DNA from: Lachnospiraceae bacterium G41
GTDB taxonomy: Bacteria; Bacillota; Clostridia; Lachnospirales; Lachnospiraceae
Direction: 5' to 3'
Length of the DNA: 52,893 nt
NCBI GenBank assembly: GCA_900100245.1
Contig: FNEU01000004.1
Span: forward strand, 1-52,893
Shown here: positions 40,001 through 52,893 of the stretch, in pieces
Layout of the letters: every line of letters begins with the position of its first letter
Position numbering within the stretch: the stretch's first letter is position 1
Position numbers and translations under genes: made by a program
The notes under the pieces: generated by a model
Database searches by the model: none
Told to the model about the DNA's origin: nothing
The model's input: only the letters and a program-made list of their open reading frames with translations

Positions 40001-40987
40001 ATGAGTTCAAACGTAAGACCCGAGTCAATGGAAAGAATCACCACAGAAGCTTTGGCAAAAGCTTTTATCGACGAGCAGATTGCTGAGATTAAGGCGCAGG
40101 TTGGTGACAAGAAAGTACTTCTTGCTTTATCAGGCGGTGTAGATTCATCCGTAGTTGCAGCACTTTTAATCAAGGCTATCGGACAGAATCTTGTATGTGT
40201 ACATGTTAACCACGGCCTTTTAAGAAAGGGCGAGCCCGAGCAGGTTATCGAAGTATTCAAGAATCAGATGAATGCCAACTTAATCTATGTTGATGCAACA
40301 GACAGATTCCTTGATAAGCTTGCAGGCGTTGCAGATCCTGAAACAAAGAGAAAAATTATAGGCAAGGAATTCATCGATGTATTCGCTGAAGAAGCTTCAA
40401 AGCTCGAAGGAATCGAATTCCTCGCACAGGGAACAATTTATCCCGACATCCTTGAAAGTGACGGCGTTAAGGCTCACCACAACGTAGGCGGCCTTCCCGA
40501 AGAATTAAATTTTGAACTCGTTGAACCCGTTAAATTCTTATATAAAGACGAAGTACGTGTAGTTGGTAAGGTACTCGGCCTTCCCGACAACATGGTTTAT
40601 CGTCAGCCCTTCCCCGGACCCGGACTCGGTGTTCGCTGCGTAGGCGCTATCACAAGAGACAGACTCGAAGCATTAAGAGAAGCTGATGCAATCGTTCGCG
40701 AAGAAATCGGTAAACTTCCCGAAACCCCTTGGCAGTACTTCTGCGCAATTCCCGACATCAAGTCTACAGGTATCAAGTATGATGCTGCCGGCAAGGGCGA
40801 GCGTTACATGGGCTGGGCAGTTGTAATCCGTGCAGTCAACACCACAGACGCAGTTAAGGTTACAGTACCCGAAATTCCTTTCGCAACACTCTGCAAAATG
40901 AGAGACCAGATCGTTCAGATCCCCGGCGTCAACAGAGTACTCTGGGATATCTCAGAAAAACCTGTTGCAACCATCGAGTGGGAATAA
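40001..40987 (+). CDS. guaA: GMP synthase ATP-pyrophosphatase subunit without glutaminase domain
   Basis: Predicted 328 residues. The PP-loop LSGGVDSSV (43-51), VNHGLLRKGE, GTIYPDILES and the dimerisation domain ending ISEKPVATIEWE cover the C-terminal two thirds of GuaA. The roughly 190-residue class I glutamine amidotransferase domain is absent, as in archaeal split GuaA subunit B; no glutaminase partner is found in the window. It converts XMP to GMP using ATP and ammonia. Its last 27 bases are repeated at 42277, and the last part also at 47745, marking an integration hotspot. Confidence 0.92.
   Translation: MSSNVRPESMERITTEALAKAFIDEQIAEIKAQVGDKKVLLALSGGVDSSVVAALLIKAIGQNLVCVHVNHGLLRKGEPEQVIEVFKNQMNANLIYVDATDRFLDKLAGVADPETKRKIIGKEFIDVFAEEASKLEGIEFLAQGTIYPDILESDGVKAHHNVGGLPEELNFELVEPVKFLYKDEVRVVGKVLGLPDNMVYRQPFPGPGLGVRCVGAITRDRLEALREADAIVREEIGKLPETPWQYFCAIPDIKSTGIKYDAAGKGERYMGWAVVIRAVNTTDAVKVTVPEIPFATLCKMRDQIVQIPGVNRVLWDISEKPVATIEWE
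40961..40987 (+). other. attachment-site-like sequence, guaA 3' end (copy 1)
   Basis: The final codons of guaA (Pro-Val-Ala-Thr-Ile-Glu-Trp-Glu-stop). Compared with copy 2 at 42277-42303 it differs at three of 27 bases, all third codon positions. Bases 40969-40986 are identical to 47745-47762. The guaA 3' end is an established insertion site of genomic islands. Confidence 0.75.
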
Positions 40988-42276: not shown

Positions 42277-42303
42277 CCTGTTGCTACGATTGAGTGGGAA
42301 TAA
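42277..42303 (+). other. attachment-site-like sequence, second guaA 3' end (copy 2)
   Basis: Encodes the same PVATIEWE-stop as the guaA terminus, with no open frame upstream. The three base changes are all synonymous, so the sequence evolved as a guaA coding end, presumably in another genome, before arriving here. A second terminator follows. Confidence 0.8.
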
Positions 42304-45122: not shown

Positions 45123-47711
45123 ATGAAAGTCAAAAATAACAAAGCGATAAACAACCTTGCTTTAAGCGGAATAAAAAACAACATAAAAAAATATGCCCTG
45201 CTTTCAATTGCGGTAATTTTAACAACACTTATGTTTTCTTCGTTTTTTACGATTGTGGGAAGCATATTAAATGAACTGCAGCTTGCAAGCATGAGACGGG
45301 CCGGCGGAAGTGCTCATGCCGAAATAAAATATCTGTGCCAAAGCGAATACGATATCTTAAAAAAAGATTCAAAGTTCAAAGATATTTCATACAGAATTGT
45401 AGTCGGATTCGTTAGGGATGAAAGACTTAAAAAATTAAATGTGGAAGTAAATTATTTTGAGCCGCTTAACGCAAAAGGCTCTTTCTGCTATCCGGAAGAA
45501 GGAAGAATGCCGGAAGCCGAAAATGAAATTGTTTTAAGTGATTTAACACTCAAAGAACTTGGTGTTCCTAAAGAAATAGGTTCGGAATTATCTTTGGATT
45601 TACTTATAGGAAATGAAGTTAAAACATATGATTTTGTTCTTTGCGGATCTTACAGAGGAGATCCGATATCATTTGCACAGCAGGCGCTTGTTTCCGAAAA
45701 GTTTCAGCAAAAATACGCTCCCGTAAAACAAACTTCGTTTTTTGAAGAAACTGATTTTAATTATTCGGGATACATCATGGCTGATATTAATTTCCGCAAT
45801 TCATTTAACATTCAAAAGAAACTGGATAAGCTTATGTCAAGGACAGGATTAAATAACAGTAATTCCGGAGTAAACTGGGCTTATATGACCTCATCAATCG
45901 ATCCTTTGGCTATTGTACTTATGATAATGTTTTTGGCTGTTTTCTTCTTTGCCGGATATTTGATTATTTATAACATCTTTTATCTTAATATTATTTCTGA
46001 TACTCAGGAATACGGGCTTTTAAAAACTATCGGAACGACAGGAAAACAAATCAGACAAATAGTGTTAAGAAGAGCATCGCTGCTGTCATTATTCGGTATA
46101 CCCATAGGTTTAATATTGGGAATAGGAGTCGGAGCATATCTTTTACCTGTTATCACCGAGGATTTAAATACCGTTTCTTTTGACAAAGGGAAAGTTCATC
46201 TGAATGTATGGATTATTCTTCTGACTGTGGTTTTTTCATATGTGACCGTAATAATCAGTTCGCTTCGCCCGTGTAAAAACGCAGCACGCGTATCGCCGAT
46301 TGAAGCTTTGAAATTTACCGAAAAGCTTGGGAAGAACGGAAAACCAAAAAGAAAAAAGGTGATTGTAATTCTATCCTTAAGTCTTGCATTGGTGGTTCTT
46401 AATTCAACATTCGGAATATTGTCGGGTCTTGATTTAAACACCTTTATAGAAAAATATACTTCCGTTGATTTCAGCATCCAGGATGCGAGTTTTGACAATC
46501 CTTCCATGATATCTTACGGAATCGGAGTCGACAACGGTTTCTGGGAAGCGGCGAATGAACAGGATTCAATCGAAAATATCGGACGTCTGTACTTTGAGTT
46601 TGAAGAGGATACTCCTTACTGTTTTGATGATATAACATGGGAGAAGATTGAGAACGGATTATTAAAGACCCGGGAAGCAAGAGAGAGAATAGAATACTCA
46701 AACAGATATAATCCGAATTTTGATGTAAATGTTTTTATTGAAAATCTGAATAAAACGAAATCGCTTGAGGGAAAACTTTACGGAATGGATGAATTCGCGG
46801 TGAGCAAACTTGATGTTATCGAAACCCTTGACGGTTCGGATAAAATCGACATGGAAAAATTCAAGTCCGGGAAATACGTTTTGTTAAATCGATTTAATTA
46901 CGATGGAAGTTGTTACAACGCTCTTGATCCGGGAGATAAAGTCCTGGTGAGAAACAAAAGACCCGAGTTTTTTAAACCGAAATATTTTGCACAGGATGGC
47001 ACACCTTACACCTTTGGGGCATATGACGAGGCGCCTCTTGAAGAATATGAAGTACTGGCCTTGGTTGAGATTCCGCATCCGATAGAACGACATTCTTATT
47101 ACTCTTATGATTTCGACTGCATACTTCCTCCCGACGAATTCTTAAATATATGCGGCGATCGCCTTCCGGAGAGAGTATTGATTGATGTTAAAAACGAAAG
47201 TGAAGAAGAATTTGAAACGTGGATAAAAGATTATACCGAAAACGAGAACGATAATCTTTCATATATATCCAAGGCAAGTGTGGAGGAAGAATATAAATCC
47301 ACACGAAAAACCATAATATCAATCGGTTTTGTTCTGGTAGTAATTCTCTCGCTTATCGGACTGTTGAATTACGCAAATACAATTATTGCATCAATTATGG
47401 TTAGGAAAAGAGAATTTGCGATGCTGGAGGCTGTCGGAATGACCGGAAAACAGCAGATATTCAGCATGGTGAGGGAAGGATTGGGTTATTTTGTCTGGAC
47501 TGCAATTGTATCAACTGTTCTGTCTACTGTGGTTAATATTTTTATTCTCAGAAATCTTATGGATGGAACTGCAATTTTAATATGGCATTTTACGCTTTTG
47601 CCTCTTATAATCTGTTTACCTTTGTTTTTAATGTTGTCTGCTTTAATACCGGTTGCGTCATATTCGGTTTTAAACAAAAAAAGCGTAGTGGAACGTCTCA
47701 GAGTGGAATAA
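45123..47711 (+). CDS. FtsX-like ABC transporter permease
   Basis: Predicted 862 residues. One N-terminal helix (about 20-42), an extracytoplasmic domain (about 45-255), a three-helix FtsX core (about 260-385), a further helix near 415, a second large extracytoplasmic region (about 435-735) and a final three-helix core ending EALK/VVERLRVE. The FtsX repeats (GLLKTIGTTGKQIRQIVLRR and AMLEAVGMTGKQQIFSMVRE) are clear. Architecture with two large outer domains differs from classical BceB (one). Probably removes or senses antimicrobial peptides with the ATPase and two-component system. Confidence 0.92.
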   Translation: MKVKNNKAINNLALSGIKNNIKKYALLSIAVILTTLMFSSFFTIVGSILNELQLASMRRAGGSAHAEIKYLCQSEYDILKKDSKFKDISYRIVVGFVRDERLKKLNVEVNYFEPLNAKGSFCYPEEGRMPEAENEIVLSDLTLKELGVPKEIGSELSLDLLIGNEVKTYDFVLCGSYRGDPISFAQQALVSEKFQQKYAPVKQTSFFEETDFNYSGYIMADINFRNSFNIQKKLDKLMSRTGLNNSNSGVNWAYMTSSIDPLAIVLMIMFLAVFFFAGYLIIYNIFYLNIISDTQEYGLLKTIGTTGKQIRQIVLRRASLLSLFGIPIGLILGIGVGAYLLPVITEDLNTVSFDKGKVHLNVWIILLTVVFSYVTVIISSLRPCKNAARVSPIEALKFTEKLGKNGKPKRKKVIVILSLSLALVVLNSTFGILSGLDLNTFIEKYTSVDFSIQDASFDNPSMISYGIGVDNGFWEAANEQDSIENIGRLYFEFEEDTPYCFDDITWEKIENGLLKTREARERIEYSNRYNPNFDVNVFIENLNKTKSLEGKLYGMDEFAVSKLDVIETLDGSDKIDMEKFKSGKYVLLNRFNYDGSCYNALDPGDKVLVRNKRPEFFKPKYFAQDGTPYTFGAYDEAPLEEYEVLALVEIPHPIERHSYYSYDFDCILPPDEFLNICGDRLPERVLIDVKNESEEEFETWIKDYTENENDNLSYISKASVEEEYKSTRKTIISIGFVLVVILSLIGLLNYANTIIASIMVRKREFAMLEAVGMTGKQQIFSMVREGLGYFVWTAIVSTVLSTVVNIFILRNLMDGTAILIWHFTLLPLIICLPLFLMLSALIPVASYSVLNKKSVVERLRVE

Positions 47712-47744
47712 AAAATCACCCCTCTTCATAAAGGATTACTCGGG

Positions 47745-47762
47745 AACCATCGAGTGGGAATA
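47745..47762 (+). other. attachment-site-like sequence, guaA 3' end (copy 3)
   Basis: AACCATCGAGTGGGAATA is identical over 18 bases to the end of guaA (40969-40986). CTATTTGCAGG follows 20 bases later, as it does 21-22 bases after copy 2 (42325-42335), so similarity extends beyond the core. It bounds the two-component/ABC module on the right. Confidence 0.75.
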
Positions 47763-47811
47763 GAATTTACTTCTCACAACCCCTATTTGCAGGCAACAAT
47801 TTATTAACACT

Positions 47812-47844
47812 AAACCCGCAAGTTCTGAAGAACCTGCGGGTTTT
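47812..47844 (+). terminator. intrinsic terminator behind guaA-end copy 3
   Basis: ACCCGCA-a-GTTC with loop TGAA pairs with GAAC-c-TGCGGGT, followed by TTT. Its position and CCCGCA stem parallel the terminator behind copy 2. Confidence 0.8.
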
Positions 47845-47925
47845 AAATTTCCTCTGTTCTTTTGCCAAAGGTTATACAAAACTTGCAGTATTTTTAATAT
47901 CCTCGGCCATTTTCCCCGCTCATTG

Positions 47926-47954
47926 TTGAAATATTTGTTTTGATATATTATAAT
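47926..47954 (+). promoter_or_regulatory. promoter upstream of repeat array 1
   Basis: TTGAAA (47926-47931), exactly 17 bases, TATAAT (47949-47954). It reads into the leader hairpin, the six-unit array and the nuclease-like gene, predicting a 5' leader of about 500 bases. Confidence 0.85.
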
Positions 47955-47973
47955 TTCACTCACCACAATAAGT

Positions 47974-47998
47974 TGAGCTTAATTCTAAGCTCATTTTT
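47974..47998 (+). terminator. leader hairpin with T tract ahead of array 1
   Basis: TGAGCTTA (47974-47981) pairs perfectly with TAAGCTCA (47986-47993), loop ATTC, then TTTTT. It starts about 13 bases after the expected transcript start and looks like an attenuator. A weaker counterpart with G-T pairs occurs at 51458-51476. Confidence 0.65.
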
Positions 47999-48038
47999 CC
48001 CAGTTTAAACTCATATAAACTATATAATGCACTGAAAT

Positions 48039-48384
48039 TACGGGTGTAGAAAGAAAAGTGCGCTAATACCCGTAAAATAAAACAACCCTCACTGCGGGAC
48101 TACGGGTGTAGAGAAAAAAACGCGCTAACACCCGTAAAATAAAGCGACTCACACCGCAGAACTACGGGTGTAGAGAAAAAAACGCGCTAACACCCGTAAA
48201 ATAAAGCGACTCACACCGCAGAACTACGGGTGTAGAGAGAAAAACGCGCTAGCACCCGTAAAATAAAGCGACTCACACCGCAGAACTACGGGTGTAGAGA
48301 AAAAAGCACGCCAGCACCCGTAAAATAAAGCGACTCTCATCACAGGACTACGGGTGTAGAGGAAAAAACGGCGCTAACACCCGC
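48039..48384 (+). repeat. tandem array 1: six inverted-repeat units, 62-bp period
   Basis: TACGGGTGT begins at 48039, 48101, 48163, 48225, 48287 and 48349, an exact 62-base spacing. Each is followed after about 18 purine-rich bases by ACACCCGTA, giving a 36-base hairpin and a 26-base linker (AAATAAAGCGACTCACACCGCAGAAC-like). Variants in the arm (ATACCCGT in unit 1, GCACCCGT in units 4 and 5) keep pairing through G-T pairs. Linkers are nearly identical, so this is not a CRISPR. The array ends about 78 bases ahead of the gene at 48462. Confidence 0.93.
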
Positions 48385-48461
48385 AAAAAAAAGAAATGTT
48401 CCCCAAAAGAACAGGATATAAGTTGGAAATTAGAAGAAAACAGAAAGAAAAGGGGTAAAAA

Positions 48462-49259
48462 ATGGAAAACTATAGTGAAATACTCAAAAGTCAATTGGAT
48501 GAAATTAATGATTTGATAGCTAAATCAAATAAGAATCTTTCAAAACTACAGAATGTTCCGAATCGTAGTATTATGGTAAGTCATTGCAATGGATGCGACC
48601 AGTATTATTGGTATAACAAGGTTGAAGATACAAAGGAATATATCAAAAAATCACAAAAAGGAGAATTGAGAAAAACCCTTCAACGTGACTACGAAATTTC
48701 CGTCAACAAAAAACTGAACGCCCTCAAAAGAAAACTTTCAAAATTCCTGAAAACCTATGATATCGACGAAATAGAAAAGGTTTATTCCAACCTTCCGGAA
48801 GCAAGAAAAAATCTTGTAACTCCAATAGTGGATACAAAGGAAGAGTTTGTAAAGAAGTGGGAAAGCGTAGAATATGAGCCGATGGAAATCAACGATAATA
48901 TTGAATTTGTATCAGTTAACGGAGTTAAGGTCAGGTCAAAATCCGAGTTGATTATTGCCAATATGCTGGAGAAAAACGGAGTCTGCTACAGATATGAATA
49001 TCCAATCATACTTAAAGGGTTGGGAACTGTAAGACCGGATTTTCTCTGCCTGAATAAACGAACACTAAAAGAATATGTTTGGGAGCATTTTGGCATGATG
49101 GATAATATAGCGTATGCCAATAAAAACATAGCTAAAATCCAAACATACGAGCAGAATGATTTCCTCGCGGGAAAAAACATGATCATGACATTTGAGTCAT
49201 CGATGACTCCGCTCAGTTCAGCCACAATAAAACAAATGATAGAAGAATATTTGTTATAA
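48462..49259 (+). CDS. PD-(D/E)XK nuclease-like protein associated with repeat array 1
   Basis: Predicted 265 residues, no signal or membrane segment. Residues 1-30 and 70-100 are helical, probably coiled coil. The C-terminal half has a nuclease-like pattern: RSKSE (E162) in the first helix, YRYEYP, RPDF (D193) and WEHFG (E208, H209), with H at the place of the usual lysine. I recall related Clostridia proteins annotated only as hypothetical; no function is known to me. It is about 70% identical to the protein at 51927, with least similarity at residues 36-69. AAGGGG precedes the ATG. Catalytic activity is inferred from motifs only. Confidence 0.8.
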   Translation: MENYSEILKSQLDEINDLIAKSNKNLSKLQNVPNRSIMVSHCNGCDQYYWYNKVEDTKEYIKKSQKGELRKTLQRDYEISVNKKLNALKRKLSKFLKTYDIDEIEKVYSNLPEARKNLVTPIVDTKEEFVKKWESVEYEPMEINDNIEFVSVNGVKVRSKSELIIANMLEKNGVCYRYEYPIILKGLGTVRPDFLCLNKRTLKEYVWEHFGMMDNIAYANKNIAKIQTYEQNDFLAGKNMIMTFESSMTPLSSATIKQMIEEYLL

Positions 49260-49363
49260 AATTTTATCACCATTGGTGACAGAATTTGGTTGGTCTAATC
49301 AATGGATGATATGTTAAAATAATTAAGAAAGTATTCTAACCACCCACAGAAAGGAAGAATAGT

Positions 49364-50146
49364 ATGGCAAATATTTCTGTTCGCTTTTATTCAAACTGTT
49401 TGAGAAGATTTACGACATTTAATATGTATCTGCCCAATGATATAAGGGAAGAGGAGCCCAACGAGTCGGAGTACGCGAATCGTCCGGTCAAGACGCTGTT
49501 CCTGCTTCACGGATATACGGGCGACGCAGATAACTGGGTGCCGTGGTATCTGGCGGATAAGTATAATTTTGCGGTAGTGATTCCAAACGGCGAGAACGCA
49601 TTCTGGCTCGACGGCATATCGACAGGCCATGCATTCTGCAAATTCGTGGGCGAGGAACTCATGGATTATGTAAGGCGAGTTTTCGGCCTTGCAAAAACAA
49701 AGGAAGACACCTACATTATGGGAATGTCCATGGGCGGATTCGGCGCACTGCACACCGCTTTGTACTATCCTGATAAATTCGGCACCGCTACAGCACTTTC
49801 TCCCGCATTAATTGTACATGAAGTAGCGTCCCTAAAAGAAGGCGAAGGAAACGGGATAGCAAATTATGAGTACTTCAGAGAATGCTTCGGAGATCTCACG
49901 AAGGTGCTTGAAAGCAGGAACAATCCCGAAACGCTCATAAAAGAAATAAAAGCCGAAGGCAAAGACTGCCCTAAAATATACATGGCTTGCGGAACGGATG
50001 ATTTCCTGATTGAGAACAACCGAAACTTCCACAAATTCCTTGAATCCGAGGGAATTGAACATGTTTATGCGGAAGAAAAGGGCGATCATAACATGGAATT
50101 TTGGGACAAATATTTGCGGATATTTATACCTAAGATGTTCGAATAA
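49364..50146 (+). CDS. esterase D-like alpha/beta hydrolase
   Basis: Predicted 260 residues. The FLLHGYTGDADNW oxyanion-hole segment, nucleophile elbow GMSMGGFG (Ser near 122), a catalytic aspartate in CGTDDFL and a histidine in KGDHNMEFW near residue 245 make up the triad. The family includes S-formylglutathione hydrolase, acetylxylan and feruloyl esterases, the latter fitting a plant-polymer degrader. No signal peptide, so intracellular. AAAGGAAG precedes the start. It stands between the two repeat-nuclease loci. Confidence 0.92.
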   Translation: MANISVRFYSNCLRRFTTFNMYLPNDIREEEPNESEYANRPVKTLFLLHGYTGDADNWVPWYLADKYNFAVVIPNGENAFWLDGISTGHAFCKFVGEELMDYVRRVFGLAKTKEDTYIMGMSMGGFGALHTALYYPDKFGTATALSPALIVHEVASLKEGEGNGIANYEYFRECFGDLTKVLESRNNPETLIKEIKAEGKDCPKIYMACGTDDFLIENNRNFHKFLESEGIEHVYAEEKGDHNMEFWDKYLRIFIPKMFE

Positions 50147-50169
50147 CTCGAGGGTGCTTTGGCTACCGG

Positions 50170-50197
50170 GTGACACAGGGGGACGGGGTTTTAATGT
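50170..50197 (+). repeat. half copy of the REP-like element
   Basis: GTGACACAGGGGGACGGGG matches the left arm of the element at 19376 at 18 of 19 bases. The complementary right arm is missing, so it is a degenerate or half element. Confidence 0.65.
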
Positions 50198-50293
50198 AAT
50201 AGAAAAACTTAAAATGAATCTTTAGCAAATTTTCCCATAACAATCCTATGTTCATTTCGTGTATTATTTTGAATGATCATTCGGAGGCCAGTA

Positions 50294-51322
50294 ATGAAAA
50301 ACAACGTAAGAAAAATATTCGCAACATTAAGCATATTAATACTTGCGGTATTATCAATGACCGGGTGTGGCAAGAAGGCACCCGAGTTTAGCGATGAAAT
50401 AATGTTTTCGCTTCGTGTATATGAGCCGTGGATTTATGAATCGCTTCACTATACTCTGCTTTGCGACGGAACCCTGATAGTACAGTATTACGAAACAGAA
50501 CTCGGAAGAGAGACAATTTCAGATGAAAGAATGGATGAGATAAAAAAGAAATTCTCTGCTGAAAAAGTTTACAATATGAATGTGGGAAAAGAAGCTGACT
50601 TTACAGACGGAACAAGGAGTTACATTGTTCTTTATGACAGCGACGGAAATGAAATAGAAATCGGAGGATATGAGGTATCAAGCAGAAAGTTTAATAGTCT
50701 CTTTTATGATCTTTATGCTTTGTGTGAAGACGATTATACCAAGCAGTTTTCGGATCTTCTGCTTGAATGCAGGCGTGAAGGAGTAACCTACCGCGAAAAA
50801 TATATGAATAACAATGTTTCGGATGAGCCGGAAGAAACCGATCCCGAAGAAGAAACCTGGAAAGAAATGGAATGCGAATATATAAACAGTTTCAAGTGCG
50901 GATATTTAAGCCAGAATAACGCTCCGAGTGCGTATGTTATATACCTGATTGAAACAGATGAAGAAGCGGACTATGCAGAAGAAAAGCTTGGAATGAGAGA
51001 ACCTGATGATCCGGATGAATTATGGAGTTTTAATACAGATGTTTCTGATGTTTTTCAGGAAATGAGGATGAATTATTCGACAGCTATATATAATTATCTG
51101 ATTTATTATACGGAATACTCTCAGGGCGGTAATTATTCCCATGCCGATGCCGTAATAACCAATGGCAGGGAGATATCGTTTAATTATGATGTTGTTGAAT
51201 CACCGGAAGGAGACTTTGGTACAGATGTAATGGACGGAGATATCGTTTTTGCAGCCGTTCCGAAGTACTGTTTCAAAGACCTGGAATTAACCAATACGGT
51301 AAGCCCGCTGGAAGAAAAATAA
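50294..51322 (+). CDS. lipoprotein of unknown function
   Basis: Predicted 342 residues. A basic N terminus, hydrophobic helix (about 8-22) and lipobox SMTGC with C25 mark a signal-peptidase II lipoprotein exposed on the outer face. The mature part is acidic with no recognised motif; a segment around residues 178-196 is almost all Glu, Asp, Pro and Thr. GGAGG lies upstream of ATG 50294; an earlier ATG at 50273 lies before it. Closed by the terminator at 51355. Confidence 0.82.
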   Translation: MKNNVRKIFATLSILILAVLSMTGCGKKAPEFSDEIMFSLRVYEPWIYESLHYTLLCDGTLIVQYYETELGRETISDERMDEIKKKFSAEKVYNMNVGKEADFTDGTRSYIVLYDSDGNEIEIGGYEVSSRKFNSLFYDLYALCEDDYTKQFSDLLLECRREGVTYREKYMNNNVSDEPEETDPEEETWKEMECEYINSFKCGYLSQNNAPSAYVIYLIETDEEADYAEEKLGMREPDDPDELWSFNTDVSDVFQEMRMNYSTAIYNYLIYYTEYSQGGNYSHADAVITNGREISFNYDVVESPEGDFGTDVMDGDIVFAAVPKYCFKDLELTNTVSPLEEK

Positions 51323-51354
51323 TAAGTGATTTTCCGCAGCCACAATGACGTGTA

Positions 51355-51395
51355 CCCCTTTTCCGAACAATCGGAGAAAGGGGTTTTTATTTTTT
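51355..51395 (+). terminator. intrinsic terminator after the lipoprotein gene
   Basis: CCCCTTTTCCGA pairs with TCGGAGAAAGGGG (one bulge), loop ACAA, then TTTTTATTTTTT. Confidence 0.92.
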
Positions 51396-51414
51396 CTGCT
51401 TATACAATGCTGTA

Positions 51415-51443
51415 TTGATAATTAAGCAAGACAGTATTATAAT
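51415..51443 (+). promoter_or_regulatory. promoter upstream of repeat array 2
   Basis: TTGATA (51415-51420), exactly 17 bases, TATAAT (51438-51443). Same layout as the promoter of array 1; the following leader shares CTAAGCT, TTTCCC and TGAAATTACG with it. Confidence 0.85.
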
Positions 51444-51508
51444 CACAGTCATCAACGGAGTTTAAATCTAAGCTTTGTATTTCCCTAAACCTATTAAACA
51501 TATTGAAA

Positions 51509-51894
51509 TTACGTGCGAAACAGTGTCTTTATTTGAAACGCTCGTAAAAGAGTTCGCCTTTGGTCGTGATACTACAAGCGGAAAACAAGAGAAGTCTAAA
51601 ACGCACGTAGTACAACTAAGTCGCAGGAGCAAAACTACGCGCAAAAAGCAAGAGAGGAATAGAACGCACGTAGTATAACGAAGTCGCAGGAGCAAAACTA
51701 CGCGCAAAAAGCAAGAGAAGTTAAATACGCGCGTAGGAAAACGAGTCCGCATGTAAAATACTACGCGCAAATAACAAGAGAAGATATAAACGCTCGTAGT
51801 ATAACGAAGCAGCCAGCGCAAATCTACGCGCAAATAACAAGAGAAGTCCCAAACGCGCGTAAGAAAGTAGAACCATAGATAAAATACTACGCGC
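51509..51894 (+). repeat. tandem array 2 (upstream part): inverted-repeat units, 63-bp period
   Basis: The arm ACTACGCGC or a close variant begins at 51571, 51634, 51697, 51760, 51823 and 51886, an exact 63-base spacing, after a first variant unit TTACGTGCG at 51509. Each is followed by a purine-rich loop (AAAAAGCAAGAGAAG-like) and the complementary arm (ACGCGCGTAGT-like) about 30 bases later. In the first unit both arms change together (TTACG with CGTAA). The last arm (51886-51894) is unpaired and runs straight into the AAAGGAGG of the gene at 51927. Confidence 0.92.
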
Positions 51895-51926
51895 GAAAAA
51901 CAAAAGAAGAAGAAAAAGGAGGTAAC

Positions 51927-52724
51927 ATGGAAAACTATAATGAAAAACTAAAAGCTCAAATTAAGGAAATTGATGACCTGATAGCGAAATCAAACAAGAA
52001 TTTGTCTAAACTTCAAAACGCTCCAAATCGCAAAGTAAGAGTGGGTAAGAGTAACGGAAGCTACCAGTATTATTGGGTTGATGAGAAGACTCAAAAAAGG
52101 GTATATGTTCCAAAATCCAAACTGGAAGATTTGAGAAAAACTGTTCAGCGCGATTATGAGAAAAAAGTAAACAAGAAACTAAAAACACTGAGGAGAAGAC
52201 TGTCTGATTTCATAAGAATATTTGATGTTGACCAAATAGAAAGTGTTTATACCAATCTTTCAGCAGCAAGAAAAAAGCTTGTAATGCCAATAGTTGAAAC
52301 AAAAGAAGATTTCATAAAAAGGTGGAAAAGCGTCCAATATGAGCCAATGCCTATCGAAGAAAATACAGAATTTGTTACTGCGAACGGAGTCAAAGTCAGA
52401 TCAAAATCTGAACTAATAATTGCCAACATGCTGGAACAAAACGGAGTCAGCTATCGATACGAATATCCATTAACACTACGCGGGTTAGGAACAGTTCGCC
52501 CGGATTTCTTTTGCCTGAATGAAAGGACCGGAAAAGAGTATATTTGGGAGCATTTTGGAATGATGGATAACATTGCGTATGCCAACAGGAACATTAGCAA
52601 GATTCAAACCTATGAGCAAAACGGCTTCCTTGCAGGGAAAAACATGATTATGACCTTCGAAGCATCTGCAACACCGCTTAACTCGTCTTCGGTAATGCGT
52701 ATGATAGAAGAATATTTATCATAA
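51927..52724 (+). CDS. PD-(D/E)XK nuclease-like protein associated with repeat array 2
   Basis: Predicted 265 residues, collinear without gaps with the protein at 48462. The putative active-site residues E162, D193, E208 and H209 are conserved, as is the sequence from about residue 155 to the end. The most different stretch is 36-69, which here is basic and rich in Lys, Val and Tyr (beta-hairpin-like) and may give binding specificity. AAGGAGG gives strong translation. Repeat units of the same array lie on both sides, so the gene sits inside the array. Function unknown; hairpin DNA or RNA binding is the working idea. Confidence 0.8.
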   Translation: MENYNEKLKAQIKEIDDLIAKSNKNLSKLQNAPNRKVRVGKSNGSYQYYWVDEKTQKRVYVPKSKLEDLRKTVQRDYEKKVNKKLKTLRRRLSDFIRIFDVDQIESVYTNLSAARKKLVMPIVETKEDFIKRWKSVQYEPMPIEENTEFVTANGVKVRSKSELIIANMLEQNGVSYRYEYPLTLRGLGTVRPDFFCLNERTGKEYIWEHFGMMDNIAYANRNISKIQTYEQNGFLAGKNMIMTFEASATPLNSSSVMRMIEEYLS

Positions 52725-52893
52725 AAGAAACATATTAGCGCATTATTCTTATGATGCACTACGAGATAAAAACAAGAGAAGAAAAAAACGCGCGTAGGAT
52801 AAAGAGAAGGCAATCGCAATGCTACGCGCGAAAAGCAAGAGAAGATATAAACGCTCGTACTATAACTAAGCAGCTAGCGCAAACTTACGCGCG
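52725..52893 (+). repeat. tandem array 2 (downstream part), running off the window
   Basis: The 63-base periodic arms resume after the gene at 52758 (ACTACGAGA), 52821 (GCTACGCGC) and about 52884 (CTTACGCGC), with complementary arms at 52788 and 52851. The purine-rich loop AACAAGAGAAG is kept. The array continues beyond the end of the sequence. Confidence 0.88.

Follow-up and report, generated by a model that had tools for sequence, protein, structure and literature searches.

A putative PD-(D/E)XK-type nuclease family of rumen and gut bacteria with helically phased inverted-repeat arrays beside its own gene

In Lachnospiraceae bacterium G41, six inverted repeats with an exact 62-base step lie between a promoter and a gene for a nuclease-like protein, which raises the question of whether array and gene form one unit and, if so, in which form the repeats would be recognised. 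We have addressed this question in the window, the whole stretch of 52,893 nucleotides of contig FNEU01000004.1 that was analysed, and in related genomes. We favour, at a probability of roughly 60%, the reading of a two-part module for DNA recognition, whose PD-(D/E)XK-type nuclease would bind its own phased arrays both in cis and in trans. The features of the window that bear on this reading are as follows.

47743–47762, + strand: copy of the guaA 3' end, holding GAGTGGGA, just before module 1
47926–47954, + strand: sigma-70-type promoter of the leader, TTGAAA-17-TATAAT, 11 of 12 consensus letters
47974–47993, + strand: leader hairpin TGAGCTTA-ATTC-TAAGCTCA, with a similar leader in loci L298, L299, L301 and L302
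48039–48385, + strand: array 1, six inverted-repeat units with a 62-bp step (6 helical turns), half-site TACGGGTGT
48462–49259, + strand: copy 1 of the array-associated, putative PD-(D/E)XK-type nuclease, 265 aa
48549–48665, + strand: codons for residues 30–68, a predicted three-stranded sheet and proposed half-site reader
48909–49256, + strand: codons for residues 150–265, the putative nuclease domain, with S159, K160, E162, D193 and H209 invariant
51510–51907, + strand: array 2 (approximate ends), half-site TACGCGC, 63-bp step
51927–52724, + strand: copy 2, a paralogous putative nuclease, 69% identical to copy 1
52758–52893, + strand: array 2b, 3' of copy 2, with the same half-site TACGCGC as array 2, running on past the window and across a run of N to ~53250 of the contig

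The promoter, the leader hairpin, the six units with TACGGGTGT/ACACCCGTA arms and a purine-rich interior, and the 265-residue ORF had all been reported in a preliminary description of the locus and were confirmed in every case, the units starting at 48039, 48101, 48163, 48225, 48287 and 48349 and the RSKSE, RPDF and WEHFG motifs of copy 1 occupying residues 158–162, 191–194 and 207–211, respectively. Promoter-like sites are no more frequent in the region than in shuffled sequence (5 versus a mean of 5.4) and only the quality of TTGAAA-17-TATAAT stands out. The exact arm pattern of array 1 occurs at eight sites in the 2.6-Mb genome, every one inside arrays, and the reversed control pattern at none. 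A similar leader precedes arrays in other genomes whether the gene is present or absent, as in G009:C67 and G009:C14, where leader and array are followed by no gene. The observation is larger than originally reported, as a second module, composed of array 2, the paralogue and array 2b, spans 51510–52893 and 13 gene-less arrays are found elsewhere in the genome.

Several further features of the arrays and their surroundings were observed. Array 2b is interrupted by a scaffold gap (run of N, G000 C21:52894 to ~53153), and C4, C11 and several contigs of relatives end inside or beside arrays. Arrays flank the gene on both sides, like terminal repeats, in L104, L082 and around copy 2 of the window. 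In L098 (3423–3919, 5776–6169), the gene's own array has mostly 84-bp steps, and a second array, with a CCGATAG-type half-site repeated every 75 bp (7 turns), is located ~1 kb downstream. Within the window, guaA-derived direct repeats bound successive blocks which hold a CAAX protease gene, two-component and ABC genes, and module 1.

The proposal that array and gene form one unit is borne out at the level of linkage. At least three inverted-repeat units, as called by a single unit finder, were detected upstream of the gene in 72 of 108 homologue loci and fewer than three in the other 36, these being the loci with at least 150 bp of upstream sequence, read up to 900 bp, and including two contigs that occur twice (70 of 106 distinct). 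Among named loci with 900 bp upstream, at least three units were present in 45 of 68 upstream windows compared with none of 66, 63 and 74 distant windows, none of 68 upstream windows after shuffling of their letters and 5 of 76 windows just downstream. With the threshold lowered to two units, the corresponding counts are 60 of 68 upstream versus 8, 16 and 12 in the distant windows, 27 downstream and 7 in the shuffles. By eye, no array was found in homologue loci L017, L034 and L035. Array and gene belong together.

The protein belongs to an undescribed family that occurs in rumen and gut bacteria. Relatives were found in 27 of the 99 genomes searched, own genome included, and in GTDB contigs at least 565 of at least 594 pattern matches encode a relative; the best 80 of these, kept as named loci, include Lachnospiraceae, Treponema and Fibrobacter. 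In a tree of 78 of the 80, nine of ten Spirochaetota rows and four Fibrobacterota rows form one group, with a support of 91/85 that is below the starred level. The window protein matched nothing in Pfam or NCBIfam at E ≤ 1, no informative family in PHROGs and nothing under E 0.35 in a PDB sequence search. The C-terminal half matches the PADLOC profiles PDC-S68 (8e-26) and HEAT_CxxC_PDDEXK (7e-5), with matches among the five proteins scanned confined to the nuclease domain and no whole-protein match to a known defence system. An AlphaFold model (pLDDT 90, pTM 0.62) begins with a helix, which is followed by a three-stranded sheet, a long helix and, C-terminally, an alpha/beta domain. Invariant residues are S159, K160 and E162 (107 of 107 rows) and D193 and H209 (106 of 106), while E208 is conserved in 105 of 106 and the classical ExK triplet is absent; these conserved residues of the nuclease core presumably have catalytic roles. 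The E..PD..E pattern had originally been read as that of PD-(D/E)XK nucleases, and the PADLOC profiles and invariant residues support this reading, the fold search agreeing weakly, such that the C-terminal part is likely a PD-(D/E)XK-type nuclease domain. Structure prediction, which had been proposed as a check, gave a divided result: PD-(D/E)XK enzymes are among the top Foldseek matches, with Bax1, R2 endonuclease, arenavirus endonucleases, Vsr, DrdV and MunI listed, but all are weak (best E 0.005), prefoldins and a designed protein also appear and none reaches E ≤ 0.001. Of the two results that the preliminary description had named as refuting, homologues mostly without nearby arrays and a predicted structure lacking a PD-(D/E)XK core, neither clearly occurred. 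A fold search with the N-terminal domain returned no DNA-binding domain match, the best being a prefoldin at E 0.18 and lambda integrase appearing only at E 2.5; that the N-terminal part is an arm-binding-type domain is a guess.

Among close relatives, the half-site as judged from sequence comparison tracks the N-terminal beta-sheet and not the nuclease domain. Between own genome (G000) and G023 at the gene locus, identity is 95–100% up to ~47980, 40–58% in the array, 54–77% over residues 1 to ~60, 83–100% in the rest of the gene and 91–100% beyond it, residues 73–265 being 94% identical, and the half-sites are TACGGGTGT and TACGGGCT, respectively. Cassette-like exchange of array and sheet is indicated by this one genome pair. 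Across seven close proteins, residues 30–68 are 72–97% identical within half-site groups and 31–54% identical between them, the groups comprising three proteins with TACGGGTGT, two with TACGGGCT and two with TACGCGC, and the half-site of the seventh protein (L014) being taken from its array instead of the consensus table. Where residues 150–265 are at least 75% identical (56 pairs, which are not independent), half-site and sheet similarity have a rank correlation of 0.86. Over all 2415 pairs, the sheet gives a partial rank correlation of 0.16, higher than in any of 500 permutations (maximum 0.11), the linker region giving 0.14 and the nuclease 0.07. The coupling is clear among close relatives and weak at distance. 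From this coupling alone, recognition of the repeats by the protein, as first suggested for this locus, is likely.

The spacing of the units bears on the form in which they would be recognised. Unit steps cluster at 51–53, 62–65, 73–76, 84–86, 94–95 and 106 bp, corresponding to 5 to 10 helical turns, with one outlying step of 45 bp, from L096, in which a palindromic half-site is read out of register. For the 83 step values, which derive from 69 of 70 arrays after exclusion of 22 of 253 raw steps outside 45–112 bp, many of them unit multiples, the resultant length R is 0.859 at 10.5 bp, with a best period of 10.6 bp and a mean phase of 0.26 bp. Distances from a whole turn do not exceed 1, 1.5, 2 and 2.5 bp in 71, 77, 81 and 82 of these values, respectively, compared with the 19, 29, 38 and 48% expected under uniform spacing. 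Phasing persists without the 6-turn class (44 values, R = 0.850), in Spirochaetota and Fibrobacterota alone (20 values, R = 0.845) and in step differences within arrays (n = 14, R = 0.893); none of 10,000 uniform draws reached the first three of these R values, although formal p-values overstate the phasing because of the common descent of the arrays. The outer TAC..GTA distance is 36–39 bp in 34 of the 42 arrays with a TAC half-site, 26 arrays being without TAC. A steady TAC..GTA distance combined with steps in whole turns indicates that the dyad is nearly constant and that the linker varies by whole turns. Recognition on double-stranded DNA would be expected to go with whole-turn spacing, for which RNA offers no evident reason. 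Each unit is best taken as a pair of half-sites in double-stranded DNA, putatively ~37 bp across.

In the favoured reading, each array unit would be a dyad of two inverted half-sites, ~37 bp across, and the spacing of units by whole turns would place the dyads on one face of the DNA. The N-terminal helix-sheet-helix domain would read the half-site, presumably as one dimer per unit, and dimers may stack along this face, coating the array cooperatively. As the array lies in the 5' leader of its own gene, the module may be self-regulating, binding between promoter and start codon repressing the gene. Gene-less arrays with the same half-sites would be bound in trans, and the nuclease probably acts at or near the arrays, where it may help to copy, expand or remove them.

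Gene-less arrays go beyond pure self-regulation. The own genome contains 13 arrays with the same two arm kinds and no adjoining gene, in 12 regions on eight contigs (C4, C8, C10, two on C11, four on C17, two on C20, C21:108290 and C22), those on C4 and one on C11 reaching the contig end, and a protein search of this genome returned only the two window genes. These solo arrays occupy the gaps between clear long ORFs. Overlap with mechanically called ORFs was seen in L118, L128, L131 and L132, L131 having a downstream ATG after the array, and in L126 an ORF meets the edge of the array; all were judged to be repeat read-through or spurious. For nine of the 13 (C4, C8, one on C11, two on C17, both on C20, C21 and C22), the distance to the 3' end of a gene is no more than 90 bp. 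Across the genus, the pattern TACGGGY..RCCCGTA is present in 10 of 31 genomes, with 24, 19, 9, 5 and 27 sites in G000, G009, G010, G020 and G023, the genomes with a TACGGG gene-borne array. Sites are absent from 21 of the other 26 genomes, the remainder having 7 (G008), 5 (G006), 2 (G003), 2 (G019) and 1 (G026), and the reversed control has one site each in two of the 31. A protein search detected no gene in the draft genomes G006 and G008.

Comparison of individual sites between relatives revealed differences in array content. At C22, a 4-unit array is absent in G023 and G013, where the matches to the G000 flanks abut with a 5-base overlap; G000 has TAAAT on both sides of the ~293-bp insert and G006 keeps short ends only. 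This is the one array site at which a 5-bp direct repeat was seen; it does not establish transposition, and the array may have been lost in the relatives and not gained in G000. At C20:53156, G013, G020, G003 and G010 show no array beside the corresponding flank and have a different gene content there as well, while G023 has another array sequence beyond an extra gene and G006 an altered array. The C10 array is present in G023 and reduced to a half-unit remnant in G006. At the gene locus itself no clean empty site was found, G006 being 99% identical as far as the preceding gene and different beyond it.

Two other kinds of repeat were encountered at these sites. A ~45-bp dispersed repeat, CAGATTAACTTTCAGTTTTATAGACGATGACAAATCGGGATTTG, occurs at L007:4896–4939, in L008 near 5030 (right part only) and at G000:C9 (L304, L305), G003:C41 (L307), G020:C124 (L308), G010:C27 (L309) and G011:C2 (L310), in most cases separating a gene from the start of the one that follows, like a gene-cassette junction. 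At L126:3776–3985, immediately to the left of the C10 array, sequence resembling a tRNA 3' end (TTCGAATCCCTCCGTCTGCGC and variants) is repeated, and homology to several relatives stops at these repeats.

A stronger form of the favoured reading, in which the nuclease, docked as a phased filament, would copy arrays to sites after stop codons and swap array and reading domain as a cassette, is possible but is held only tentatively. An unlikely, though serious, alternative is that a domesticated DNA-binding protein acts as a host regulator or chromosome organiser, with the arrays serving as operators or anchoring sites between genes and nuclease activity used rarely or for array maintenance. The arrays are phased like protein-binding sites, one lies between the promoter and the protein's own gene, and 13 are distributed over eight contigs of own genome, some of them common to G000 and G023; arrays shared between species suit a host role as well as mobility. 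This view is at odds with the invariance of the nuclease residues in 106–107 rows, and the position of nine of 13 solo arrays so close to the 3' end of a gene is a poor fit to operators.

Improbable as well is passive carriage, in which other recombination systems, such as guaA 3'-end islands and cassette-like repeats, spread arrays and gene while the nuclease is uninvolved. Besides the copy at 47743, guaA 3'-end sequence is present at 40967, within guaA itself (the guaA-like ORF of the window spans 40001–40987), and at 42283 (4 mismatches of 20), and all three copies hold GAGTGGGA, the core at which, according to PMC9376610, an island integrates into the 3' end of guaA; the probable setting of module 1 is therefore a hotspot for islands. 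Of the 80 named loci, 14 have a guaA-like ORF close to the module, in 13 of them upstream. The arrays of C8 and C11 share 267 bp at 99% identity in different contexts, and the 45-bp dispersed repeat, which adjoins both, may have moved them. Passive carriage, however, leaves the phasing and the half-site coupling unexplained.

It is quite unlikely that the protein is a defence nuclease that cuts foreign DNA while the arrays mark self DNA or store the enzyme in inactive form. Such a role would agree with the resemblance of the nuclease domain to the PADLOC candidates PDC-S68 and HEAT_CxxC_PDDEXK and with half-site and reading domain differing as a block at a fixed locus, as under specificity-diversifying pressure. 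The resemblance is nevertheless confined to that domain; among 464 flanking ORFs in 80 loci, no cluster but guaA occurs in more than five loci (14 largest clusters listed), and viral_contigs contain no TACGGGTGT dyad, the TACGCGC matches listed there (80 of at least 120) being all single sites.

Carriage of the module by phages or plasmids was considered separately and rejected. Two phage-labelled and two plasmid records were retrieved, all distant matches, and seven of eight viral relatives, likewise distant, match the nuclease part only; the TACGGGTGT dyad is absent from viral_contigs and the TACGCGC matches in viral sequences are taken as chance.

Pairing of the arms had been described as preserved by the changes in units 1, 4 and 5 of array 1; these changes are G-T (G-U in RNA), but unit 6 has an A-C mismatch (ACACCCGCA). 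Over 59 arrays, 2660 paired cells comprise 2475 Watson-Crick, 52 G-U, 48 A-C and 85 other combinations, and distinct mismatch events number 39 G-U versus 39 A-C. Changes from G-C pairs lean towards RNA (19 to G-U, 11 to A-C), whereas changes from A-T pairs lean the other way (20 to G-T, 25 to A-C), and the 35 events in which both sides changed would be given by RNA stems and symmetric DNA sites alike. Rfam returned no match above gathering score for 46000–52893 (E ≤ 1), one sub-threshold match next to the array scoring 22.7 versus 40 bits. An RNA system, with a transcribed array whose hairpins the nuclease would bind or process, is very unlikely: the array between a good promoter and the gene, the three G-U compatible arm changes of array 1 and the excess of G-U among changes from G-C pairs speak for it, but unit spacing in whole B-DNA turns, the overall near-equality of G-U and A-C and the lack of an Rfam match above the gathering score in this region speak against it, and the RNA option of the recognition first proposed is left unsupported.

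Comparison with known systems places the module by its logic and not by its parts. Iteron and operator arrays of replication initiators and transposon ends are tandem helix-phased sites beside the gene of their binder; the units described here, in contrast, are inverted pairs at a spacing of 5 to 10 turns, with gene-less copies and a putative nuclease instead of an initiator or transposase. CRISPR and TIGR loci are regular arrays near a nuclease gene, but the present arrays are without variable spacers, arms, interior and linker all repeating within an array. Bax1, Vsr, R2 endonuclease and PDC-S68 have the C-terminal nuclease core in common with the family, which differs from them in an N-terminal half-site-linked domain and cognate arrays. 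The literature covered by our searches, with subscription papers and preprints mostly outside it, contained no description of such arrays, and because database and literature searches returned neither the protein family nor phased arrays, the system appears to be categorically new.

That an enzyme can have cognate repeats dispersed in the genome is already known in general terms. In RAYT/REP systems, according to PMC2817692 and PMC3116915, an enzyme gene is associated and coevolves with palindromic repeats, has dispersed extragenic cognates, and REP abundance follows the presence of the RAYT gene; REPs usually exceed 100 per genome (PMC2817692). Here too an enzyme gene is combined with inverted repeats and the cognate arrays are dispersed and correlated with the gene, as seen in the solo arrays and the per-genome site counts. 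Repeats on both sides of the gene, another RAYT/REP trait, surround copy 2, while windows in general have them upstream (45 of 68) far more often than downstream (5 of 76). The differences are substantial, as RAYT is an IS200/IS605-type tyrosine transposase and the present protein a PD-(D/E)XK-type nuclease, by our assignment, with no Pfam match; no transposase is among the 25 listed of 40 weak matches (28 members). Thirteen solo arrays were found here, and their ~37-bp dyad units are phased by helical turns. By our analysis the module is nearest to RAYT/REP in logic, with unrelated parts, and is not a member of it.

A widespread protein family of gut and rumen bacteria thus appears to carry a binding-site array beside its own gene. 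Genome sequences alone would then give access to what are probably hundreds of naturally matched proteins and DNA sites, and a new sequence-specific domain for reading DNA could be tested directly, together with its code. If the favoured reading is true, a REP-like partnership of enzyme and repeat arose with a nuclease unrelated to tyrosine transposases; if, in addition, the arrays are copied by the nuclease, the modules would represent bacterial repeat elements of an undescribed class, in which a restriction-like nuclease generates its own landing sites and spreads them.
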